Shown here in pieces: positions 34,891 to 59,019 of a stretch of 64,000 nucleotides of DNA (position 1 is the stretch's first letter; every line of letters begins with the position of its first letter). The position numbers and the translations under genes were made by a program. The notes under the pieces were generated by a model, which saw only the letters and a list, made by a program, of their open reading frames with translations, did no database searches and was not told the DNA's origin. This DNA comes from Gemmatimonadaceae bacterium (GTDB taxonomy: Bacteria; Gemmatimonadota; Gemmatimonadetes; Gemmatimonadales; Gemmatimonadaceae), in NCBI GenBank assembly GCA_019637445.1, contig JAHBVS010000001.1, positions 1,337,586 to 1,401,585 on the forward strand, read 5' to 3'.

Positions 34891-34897
34891 TTGAACG

Positions 34898-35011
34898 GCA
34901 GTGGTGAGTTGTAAGTCGTAAGTGATAAGAGAAGAGCAACGGCGATGCGGGGTCCAATCCGCATCGCCGTTGCTCATTTCTTACGACTTACAACTCACTA
35001 CTTACAACTGC
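34898..35011. repeat. Palindromic element, family A, copy 2
   Basis: This is a 114-base inverted repeat with the same core as copy 1 (AGCAACGGCGATGCGG and its complement) and the same outer arms (GTGAGTTGTAAGTCGTAAGT and CGACTTACAACTCA). The inner loop, GGTCCAAT, differs. Like copy 1 it lies between convergent genes, here the Vgb-like gene and a membrane-protein gene. Confidence 0.88.
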
Positions 35012-35018
35012 AGTTGAT

Positions 35019-38378: not shown

Positions 38379-38390
38379 CGGCAGCTGATG

Positions 38391-38463
38391 GCCACAGAGG
38401 CACAGAGACACCGAGAACTACCACCGCGTTTTGCTTGCCTCTGTGTCTCTGTGCCTCTGCGGC
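38391..38463. repeat. Palindromic element, family B, copy 1 (between sufB and sufC)
   Basis: This 73-base inverted repeat has arms GCCACAGAGGCACAGAGACACCGAG and its complement-like CTCTGTGTCTCTGTGCCTCTGCGGC around a loop of about 20 bases. A related composite is at 58375-58562. It lies inside the operon, 12 bases after the sufB stop, and is followed by TTTTTTCTTTC about ten bases on, so it may act as a partial terminator or mRNA stabiliser. Confidence 0.85.
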
Positions 38464-38505
38464 AAACGCTTTTTTCTTTCTGACTACAACGGAACTCTGA
38501 TTCAT

Positions 38506-57072: not shown

Positions 57073-58360
57073 GTTCTGGGCGGTACTGAAGCGCGAGTAT
57101 CTCGAGCGCGTACGCACGAAGTGGTTCATCATCGTCACGCTGTTCGGCCCGTTTTTCTTCGGCGCGATCATGGTGCTGCCGGGCTACCTCTCGGTGCGCA
57201 ATATCCGTGAGGCGCGGGTGACGAACATGCGGATCGTCGACGCCACCGGCCTCGGACTGGGCGCGCGTGTGGCGCAGCGGCTGGCGGCCTCACAAGTGGC
57301 GGCCAGCACCCCGGGCGAGATGGCCCGCGTGGACACCGTGACGCAGGACGCGGTCGCCGCGACGGAGCAAGAGATGATTGCGCTGGTGCAGGCACGCGAG
57401 GAGAACGGCGTGCTGGTGCTCGACAGTGGCGTCGTAAACTCCGGCCGCGCGCGCTACTTCGGCCGCGACGCCGGCTCGGTTGGCCAGATCGAGGCCATCG
57501 AGGCCGCAGTGCGGAACGCCGTGCTGTCGTCGCGGCTTGAGGGGGCTGGTCTCAACGTGGACCAGGTGGAGTCCATCACGCGCCTGCGCATCCGCATCGC
57601 CAGCGAGAAGGTCACCGACGAGGGACTCAGCGGCTCTGGGCTGGCCAGTACCTTCTTCGGCTTCGGCGTGGCCTTCCTGCTCTATATGAGCATCATCCTC
57701 TACGGCCAGAACATCCTGCGCGGCGTGCTCGAGGAGAAGACGACTCGCGTGGCCGAGGTGATTGTCTCGAGCGTCAAGCCGGACACGTTGCTCGCCGGCA
57801 AGGTCCTGGGCGTCGGCGCCGTGGGCCTCACGCAGATGCTGGTCTGGACGGCCAGCGGCATCGTCTTCTGGGAGCAGCGCGCCCGCATCTTCTCGATGAT
57901 GGGCGTGCAGAACTTCCCCCAGATCTCGTTCCCCAACATCGACACGCTGGTCCTGATTGCGCTGCTGCTGTACTTCGTGCTTGGCTACACGTTCTATGCG
58001 TCGCTGTTCGCGGCCGTGGGTGCGATGGTCAGCTCGCAGGAAGAGGCGCAGCAGGCGGCCCAGCCGGTGATGATGCTGCTGATCTTCAGCATCATCTTCG
58101 TGCAGCCGGTGATGACGAACCCGACGGGCTCGATGGCGACCTGGCTGTCGTTCATTCCCTTCTCGGCGCCGATCATCATGCCGATGCGGATGACGGCAAC
58201 CCCCGTCTCCGCAGCGGAAATTGGCTTGTCACTCCTCGGTGTGGCGGCGGCCTGTGTGGCGGCCATCTGGCTTTCCGCGAGGATCTATCGCGTGGGCCTG
58301 CTCATGTACGGCAAGCGGCCGTCGATGCGCGAGTTGCTGCGGTGGGTGCGGCAGTCTTGA
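57065..58360 (+). CDS. ABC-2-type permease (NatB-like)
   Basis: The protein has 431 residues. One membrane segment at about 20-42 is followed by a large periplasmic loop (about 45-190). Five more segments begin at about 195, including the block ILRGVLEEKTTRVAEVIVSS of ABC-2 permeases of the NatB type. It is the partner of the ATPase upstream. The gene ends 14 bases before the composite palindrome. Confidence 0.9.
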   Translation: MAKFWAVLKREYLERVRTKWFIIVTLFGPFFFGAIMVLPGYLSVRNIREARVTNMRIVDATGLGLGARVAQRLAASQVAASTPGEMARVDTVTQDAVAATEQEMIALVQAREENGVLVLDSGVVNSGRARYFGRDAGSVGQIEAIEAAVRNAVLSSRLEGAGLNVDQVESITRLRIRIASEKVTDEGLSGSGLASTFFGFGVAFLLYMSIILYGQNILRGVLEEKTTRVAEVIVSSVKPDTLLAGKVLGVGAVGLTQMLVWTASGIVFWEQRARIFSMMGVQNFPQISFPNIDTLVLIALLLYFVLGYTFYASLFAAVGAMVSSQEEAQQAAQPVMMLLIFSIIFVQPVMTNPTGSMATWLSFIPFSAPIIMPMRMTATPVSAAEIGLSLLGVAAACVAAIWLSARIYRVGLLMYGKRPSMRELLRWVRQS

Positions 58361-58374
58361 ACTGCTAACTGCAT

Positions 58375-58562
58375 TGCCACAGAGGCACAGAGACACAGAG
58401 GTGTCGGAACGCAGGTAGGCCTCTGTGTCTATGCCAACTACAACTTCCAAGGGGGCCTGGCGGAATGATCTGTCCGCCAAGCCCCCTTTGAAGCTGCCGA
58501 TGGTATGGGCACAGAGGCCAACGTGCGCGCTCAACCCTCTGTGTCTCCGTGCCTCTGTGGCA
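58375..58562. repeat. Palindromic element, family B, composite with a nested palindrome
   Basis: The outer arms TGCCACAGAGGCACAGAGAC (58375-) and CTCTGTGTCTCCGTGCCTCT (to 58562) are inverted copies and match family B copy 1 at the sufB end. A second, incomplete right arm (CCTCTGTGTCTATGCC) and left arm (GGCACAGAGG) lie inside. Between them is another inverted repeat (58444-58463 and 58474-58493), with a loop of 10 bases. The whole sits between convergent genes. Confidence 0.85.
58444..58493. repeat. Nested palindrome inside the family B element
   Basis: CTTCCAAGGGGGCCTGGCGG and CCGCCAAGCCCCCTTTGAAG pair at most positions around AATGATCTGT. The sequence is not related to family A or to the outer arms, so it looks like a separate element that entered the loop between two family B copies. 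Confidence 0.7.
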
Positions 58563-58587
58563 AAGCAGTTCCCTCAGCGCATCAGTC

Positions 58588-59019
58588 TCAAACGGCAGCC
58601 GACGCACAGTGCTGGTCAAACGCCGCCGTCAGGTCCGCAGCGATTGCGTCGGCCGAGCGGCCTTCGATCTGGAAGCGCTCCACCATGTGCACCAGCTTGC
58701 CGTCCTTGAGCAGCGCGATGCTCGGCGAGCTCGGCGCGTAGCCAGAGAAGTATGAGCGCGCCTGGCGCGTCGCGTCCACGTCGTTGCCGGCGAACACCGT
58801 GAACTTGTGCTCCGGCAGCGTCGCATGGCGTAGGGCAAGCGCCACCGCCGGACGCATGTTGCGAGCCGCGCAGCCGCACATCGAGTTCACCACCACCAGC
58901 TGCGTGCCCTTCGTCTGAGTGAGCGCCTCGTCCACCTGCGCCGCCGACTTGAGCGGCTGCACGCCAAGCGTCTCGATCTCCGCGCGCATTGGCGCGATCC
59001 ATTGTTCGTCGTACATCAT
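58588..59019 (-). CDS. Bacilliredoxin (BrxA/BrxB-like)
   Basis: The protein has 143 residues and a thioredoxin-like fold. The active site is CGC in VNSMCGCAARNMRP (two Cys separated by one Gly), the mark of YphP/BrxA-type bacilliredoxins, which reduce protein disulfides with bacillithiol. It has YFSGYAPSSPSIALLKDGKL, the expected cis-Pro loop. The presence of a bacilliredoxin suggests that the organism makes bacillithiol. A GroES-like gene is 35 bases upstream on the same strand. Confidence 0.92.
   Translation of the reverse strand: MMYDEQWIAPMRAEIETLGVQPLKSAAQVDEALTQTKGTQLVVVNSMCGCAARNMRPAVALALRHATLPEHKFTVFAGNDVDATRQARSYFSGYAPSSPSIALLKDGKLVHMVERFQIEGRSADAIAADLTAAFDQHCASAAV

Follow-up and report, generated by a model that had tools for sequence, protein, structure and literature searches.

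A palindromic segment situated between two convergent genes in a 64,000-nucleotide stretch of a Gemmatimonadaceae genome, here called the window, raises the question of how its nested layers came to lie within one another and what they say about the mobility of such elements. A sequence-only reading of positions 58375-58562 had recognised outer arms of a repeat family termed B, broken inner arms and a separate palindrome at 58444-58493, all three of which are found in the sequence, and had proposed that a third palindromic element had inserted where two family B copies meet. The palindrome is slightly longer than first delimited and occupies 204 nt at positions 58367-58570, with family B arms on the outside, short arms further in and a hairpin at the centre. 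The two halves of this composite (58367-58464 and 58473-58570) are 98 nt each, 81% complementary and separated by a spacer of 8 nt. As single-stranded DNA the composite has a folding energy of -81.8 kcal/mol. The 200 dinucleotide shuffles average -33.6 kcal/mol (sd 3.4), which gives z -14, and not one of them folds as well.

The left outer arm displays CCACAGAGGCACAGAGACACAGAGG at 58377-58401 on the plus strand and is built of three 8-nt units (CACAGAGG/CACAGAGA/CACAGAGG), while the right outer arm presents its inverse on the minus strand at 58536-58560. Both arms are extended outwards, the left by AACTGCATTG (58367-58376, plus strand) and the right by the inverse of AACTGCTTTG (58561-58570, minus strand), the two extensions being defined by the enrichment of AAC[TG][GA] in the flanks of family B copies. 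Inside the left outer arm lies the left tip (58402-58418), the fast-changing loop of the left hairpin with 46% pairwise identity, followed by the shortened left inner arm (58419-58434, minus strand; GCCTCTGTGTCTATGC), recognised through its pairing and through the alignment of copies. The nested central palindrome (58444-58493) contains the core hairpin GGGGGCC...GCCCCC at 58451-58486. The alignment of copies also delimits the shortened right inner arm (58507-58519, plus strand; GGGCACAGAGGCC) and the right tip (58520-58535).

The composite takes up most of the 227-nt gap between an ABC-2 type permease gene (PF12698; 57065-58360, plus strand), which stops 6 nt short of the palindrome, and a convergent gene of the disulphide isomerase family (PF06491; 58588-59019, minus strand). 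The four Rfam matches to the element all fall far below the gathering cut-off. A short-form family B copy, identified by its matching arm, is located in the same window at 38388-38466.

Family B is dispersed well beyond these two places. In the window, the arm 16-mer has eight matches with up to 3 mismatches, against a mean of 0.9 and a maximum of 4 in shuffled sequence. Across the window's own 3.35 Mb Gemmatimonadaceae genome (G000; 3,350,692 bases in 7 contigs), 218 matches with up to 2 mismatches compare with 37 for the reversed pattern. The 188-nt query finds 103 matches in G000, distributed over both strands, and at about 20 places the match covers almost its full length. The closest match to the composite is 83% identical, and very recent copies of it are absent from G000. 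A census of 54 stretches around matches to the arm 16-mer identified at least 59 elements, at least 51 of them complete. Among the matches listed, 10 complete B-armed copies measure 52-76 nt, corresponding to one B hairpin, 11 measure 92-151 nt, 25 measure 172-193 nt and mostly display the layout of the composite, and 5 measure 210-314 nt. The composite layout is the standard long form of dispersed family B and its commonest form. Three of the longest B elements (L022, at G000:C1:903166-903483, L009 and L011) hold an extra family of arms, made of GCGGATGCGGGA units, between the outer arms and the core, giving three layers.

An alignment of 21 of the 25 copies in the 172-193 nt group reveals 97% identity in the outer arms, 76-87% in the inner arms, 77% in the core and 42-47% in the tips and linkers. 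The pairing of the core is retained, with compensated changes at 7 of the 39 pairs predicted for the consensus structure of these 21 copies. At the ends of the 51 complete copies among the matches listed, the arms terminate in TTTG-CCACAG and the motif AAC[TG][GA] occurs in 56 of the 102 flanks, compared with 4.2% of random 24-mers, while the best direct repeat of 3-10 nt flanking these copies is no better than in permuted flanks, so that no target-site duplication was detected. Many B copies, L022, L034, L037 and L049 for example, carry a conserved GATCGGTGCGCTGAG-like stretch just outside the arms, which alternates with AACTGC, and GTGCGCTGAG is found with up to 2 mismatches in 22 of the 102 flanks of B copies among the matches listed.

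These data bear directly on the proposed insertion. If an independent third palindrome had entered a family B pair at this site, a two-hairpin-plus-core anatomy would be expected, and such an anatomy is present. Nested arm layers also occur in relatives. Against this, about half of the complete copies among the matches listed belong to the length class of the composite, and the core was not established as a separate entity. The consensus of the nested palindrome was located at 28 places in G000, of which 23 lie inside arms of family B or of a sister type termed CACGGAG (L013, L030 and L058), the other five being weak single-strand matches with 3 mismatches. The search for the nested palindrome alone, suggested by the sequence-only reading, therefore yielded no established separate copy, and of its proposal the anatomy stands while a separate insertion event here does not. 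The copy census largely refutes the insertion of a third palindrome, which we regard as extremely improbable, and a one-off nested insertion at 58367-58570 is rejected on the same census. The nesting at this site is inherited as one unit. Neither does movement of the elements, which the composite had been taken to demonstrate, follow from this site; better evidence is provided by the dispersed family, the genome-specific arms and the link to a partner gene described below, from which we infer that family B elements are mobile.

Concentric composites of different arm types are present in relatives (G005, G016 and G058). Among those of the same genus, for example, outer CACAGAG arms enclose a middle layer of CGCAGAG arms in G005 and of CACAGGG arms in G016. 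Palindromes of this class are thus often nested. At G012:C1:225574-225840 (L160), arms of the CACAGAG/CACGGAG and CACGAAG types are interleaved instead of nested, an arrangement that simple insertion does not explain. At the permease/disulphide-isomerase junction itself, Gemmatimonas sp. PR.013 (L078) carries a composite with a different core, and in L061 an element adjoins the isomerase gene, the permease gene being about 2.5 kb away from the latter. Three more distant relatives (L063, L064 and L065) display a gap of 33-90 nt at the junction and no element. The relatives at this junction are too divergent for alignment between the genes, and were compared by presence and length only; no empty counterpart of any copy was found at the nucleotide level. 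Downstream of the same permease gene in other Gemmatimonadota (L067, L068, L072 and L076), palindromes or repeats contain unlike tandem-unit arms (GTGAGTT, GCGCGAGAAA and GCGGGAGTCG).

The genomic context of the copies was assigned with a home-made codon-usage gene caller. Among the matches listed, the 51 complete copies comprise 30 in convergent gaps, 17 in tandem gaps and 4 in unclear positions, with none in divergent gaps or inside genes, while the gaps of the window comprise 6 convergent, 26 tandem and 4 divergent cases (n=36). Convergent gaps thus account for 30 of the 47 classified copies against 6 of the 36 window gaps (p 1.5e-5). This preference, together with a core that forms a conserved hairpin with compensated pairs, would suit bidirectional terminators or 3' RNA hairpins maintained by selection without any mobile history. 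Such an origin is nevertheless very unlikely, as no T-run intrinsic terminator was called at 58200-58800 and selection on a hairpin explains neither arms that are 97% identical at unrelated sites nor the presence of such arms around one gene family.

When translated, such arms resemble the ends of annotated GxxExxY proteins, a resemblance that prompted a search for the corresponding gene. G000 contains a single copy of a GxxExxY gene (PF13366/TIGR04256), at G000:C1:1771230-1771571, which scores 131 bits against TIGR04256 (cut-off 35) and 129 bits against PF13366 (cut-off 22). This gene is tightly enclosed by TTTACCACGGAGACACAGAGACACGGAGAACT and the inverse of the near-identical TTTACCACGGAGACACGGAGACACGGAGAACT, the arm, start codon, stop codon and second arm succeeding one another at close spacing. 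The enclosing arms are B-type, with 2-3 units of 8-9 nt, and belong to the sister CACGGAG type, not to the CACAGAG type of the composite. Asp-66, Glu-76 and Lys-78 (D66, E76 and K78) are invariant in all 13 aligned GxxExxY proteins, the pattern expected of PD-(D/E)XK nucleases, and on the basis of the Pfam assignment and of the D...ExK motif GxxExxY is predicted to be a small nuclease of this class. A single-sequence AlphaFold2 model, built without an alignment for the GxxExxY protein of a viral contig (L153), reached a pLDDT of 40, and no sequence match to a GxxExxY protein was found in the PDB.

Arms also enclose GxxExxY genes elsewhere. Of 37 PF13366 loci located by tblastn, an inverted-repeat score across the gene of at least 16, the threshold adopted, was attained by 13 of the 22 genes of the GPGLLE/GAGLLE type against 1 of the 15 other loci, the remaining 14 of which lack arms, under a subtype grouping that was chosen after the data had been seen. 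Neither the 5000 random spans nor the 3314 spans next to these genes included one that attained this score. Within the GPGLLE/GAGLLE type, L090, L108, L109 and L117 are adjoined by complete palindromes as judged by eye, while L093, L096, L098, L101 and L107 have neither arms nor adjoining palindromes. Among the carriers of armed genes are Bacteroides finegoldii, Sphingomonas parapaucimobilis and Bernardetia plasmids and one IMG/VR contig, the arm sequence differing in each, while the genes on the Treponema and Persicobacter plasmids (L121 and L122) did not reach the score. In the viral_contigs collection, a scan with the G000 protein gave no match, and scans with alignments and a DNA pattern gave one contig only. 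In the other PF13366 subtype, one gene (L116, in G036) is flanked by inverted arms of GATCCGTT-like units, and this subtype may have elements of its own. In contigs C7, C16, C37 and C59 of G021, arm-type repeats are clustered about 200 nt apart, some of them beside a GxxExxY gene (L108).

Across genomes, the arms and the gene tend to occur together. Arms were counted with the pattern CCACRRRGN{1,2}CACRRRG, and genomes were termed arm-rich at 45 or more matches among 61 related genomes and at 15 or more in a 200-genome sample of the phylum, thresholds that were picked once the counts were known. The gene is present in 11 of the 12 arm-rich genomes and in 10 of the 49 others among the 61 relatives, and in 18 of the 20 arm-rich genomes against 43 of the 180 others in the phylum sample (p 8e-9). 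For the 158 genomes new to this second sample, the figures are 10 of 11 against 36 of 147 (p 2e-5), both Fisher p-values being optimistic owing to shared ancestry. Within the same genus (17 genomes), six of the seven gene carriers are arm-rich, with 53-131 matches, while none of the ten non-carriers is, their matches numbering 0-20 (the 20 belonging to G015, which also has 8 control matches). The exceptions are G058 and G196, arm-rich genomes in which no gene was detected, and G003, where the gene is present but neither arms nor dispersed copies are found.

The two exceptions rich in arms would be expected if another transposase moved the palindromes and the GxxExxY gene were a passenger once caught between two arms, and REP families elsewhere go together with Y1 transposases (PMC3116915, PMC3733652). 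We consider a passenger gene quite improbable, since G000 contains no Y1 transposase and a gene caught by chance would not account for unlike arms flanking members of one protein family in Gemmatimonadota, Bacteroidota, Sphingomonas and a viral contig.

The sequence of the arms varies together in the gene and in the dispersed copies, as shown for three relatives in counts that include the gene's own arms. In G012 the gene arm consists of CACGAAG units and both units are CACGAAG in 68 of the 92 genome matches; in G005 the gene arm CCACAGAGGGCACAGAG is identical in 36 of 53 matches; and in G008 the gene-arm unit CACAGGG recurs in 16 of 24 matches, this unit being found in none of 110 arms of G000, which were gathered by the CACAGAG pattern. 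This line of evidence is weakened by G000 itself, where the arms of the gene match only a sister arm type. The gene resides at one syntenic spot in G000, G002, G008 and G012 and yet its arms differ, and the arm sequence thus changes around a gene that stays in place. Its constant position, the lack of detectable target duplications in the 51 copies among the matches listed and the location of copies at gene ends could also signify that the arms serve a GxxExxY protein with a housekeeping role, such as self-regulation, cruciform trimming or chromosome structure, as fixed sites of recognition or control, and that ordinary duplication and gene conversion, and not mobilisation, multiplied the copies. 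This appears unlikely, because selfish spread better accounts for a family of dozens of copies at sites unrelated to each other, with interiors that have diverged, and for its presence or absence within one genus. The finding that arm-rich relatives nearly always possess the GxxExxY gene, usually between matching arms, suggests a little-known kind of selfish DNA.

With a probability of about 0.6, family B is therefore best regarded as a REPIN-like non-autonomous element that is kept or spread by GxxExxY in place of a Y1 transposase. This reading draws on observations of the family in its several forms, of arms on either side of the gene, of arms and gene occurring together in genomes and of arm variants that match. 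The composite would then be one representative of this element, palindromic, non-autonomous and dispersed, with outer arms of two to three head-to-tail 8-nt units of the same kind as those flanking the GxxExxY gene. The GxxExxY protein may recognise the units of the arms in duplex form, or a hairpin or cruciform extruded from them, and may cut there, after which repair or re-insertion would copy or maintain whatever sits between two inverted arms. This cargo could be a short tip, a terminator-like hairpin, as in the composite, or the GxxExxY gene itself. The long form probably arose when two short B hairpins came to surround a hairpin, in the manner of a composite transposon, and would later have spread as one unit. 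Copies may persist at the 3' ends of genes, mostly convergent ones, because they do least harm there, and they may act as transcript ends.

The other long palindrome of the window, termed family A, is located at 34894-35015 and consists of GTAAGT/GTGAGT units of 7-8 nt. Its arms are related to those around a G000 gene for a PF05635 four-helix protein (23S_rRNA_IVP; L143, at G000:C2:529983-530294). Among 30 sampled PF05635 loci, 24 were scored, the other 6 being too short, and 11 of the 24 have an inverted-repeat score of at least 16. A broader and tentative possibility is that a widespread class of bacterial selfish DNA was founded on GxxExxY proteins. In it, palindromes with tandem-unit arms would be spread or maintained, together with the enclosed cargo, by a small PD-(D/E)XK nuclease instead of a transposase. 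PF05635 and family A would be convergent on the same design, as the layout of family A is alike and its four-helix protein unrelated, so that two non-homologous small proteins would have converged.

GxxExxY proteins are common and carry a predicted nuclease motif. In openly licensed PMC papers, a set without preprints, no function is reported for them and the name is not tied to repeats. GxxExxY as the partner gene of a palindromic repeat family is a new result. If true, the link would give these proteins a function, account for a large body of interspersed repeats found in environmental bacteria and add a nuclease-based counterpart to RAYT/REPIN. The spread of palindromic repeats in bacteria, an old question, would then also become accessible to a simple biochemical test.

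Bacterial interspersed mosaic elements are mosaic palindromes of several modules, and MITEs are non-autonomous copies with inverted ends. Family B resembles them in its mosaic palindromes, its non-autonomous nature and its inverted ends, and differs from the MITEs of DDE transposons in that no target-site duplication was detected (51 copies among the matches listed). The intervening sequences of 23S rRNA with an S23p four-helix ORF, called a selfish element by the authors of PMC4990558, similarly place a small ORF whose function is unknown within the stem of a long inverted repeat. Their protein is PF05635 and their site is another one, and this comparison bears on family A, not on family B.

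The closest parallels are the REPIN/RAYT system and the TIRtrons. In the former, as described in PMC3116915, REPs accompany a single-copy Y1 tyrosine transposase and form inverted doublets able to fold into a single long hairpin or a clover; their arms are conserved, their variable interiors show compensated changes, they are extragenic, and one single-copy gene is flanked by the same repeats and co-varies with them. Family B is likewise an inverted doublet hairpin dispersed between genes, and has a co-varying flanked single-copy gene in which GxxExxY takes the place of RAYT, the arms of the G000 gene being of the sister type. In contrast, its partner gene is predicted to encode a PD-(D/E)XK nuclease where REPIN/RAYT has a Y1/HUH transposase, its arms are tandem 8-9-nt units, and the GTAG tetranucleotide, for which the arm ends were tested, is absent from them. 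The Y1 (HUH) transposase family PF01797 has no match in G000, while 5 of 14 control genomes are positive, and a RAYT origin is rejected on this absence. The TIRtrons of PMC3733652 are Y1 transposase genes (TIRYTs) bounded by long terminal inverted repeats, which occur as repeat families as well. They share with family B a small gene tightly placed between inverted repeats that are dispersed as singles, dimers and groups, and differ in that TIRYTs are Y1 transposases, PF01797 being absent from G000. With neither the Y1 transposase nor the GTAG tag found, family B is not a member of these systems, but it works like REPIN/RAYT and the TIRtrons in its layout and evolution.
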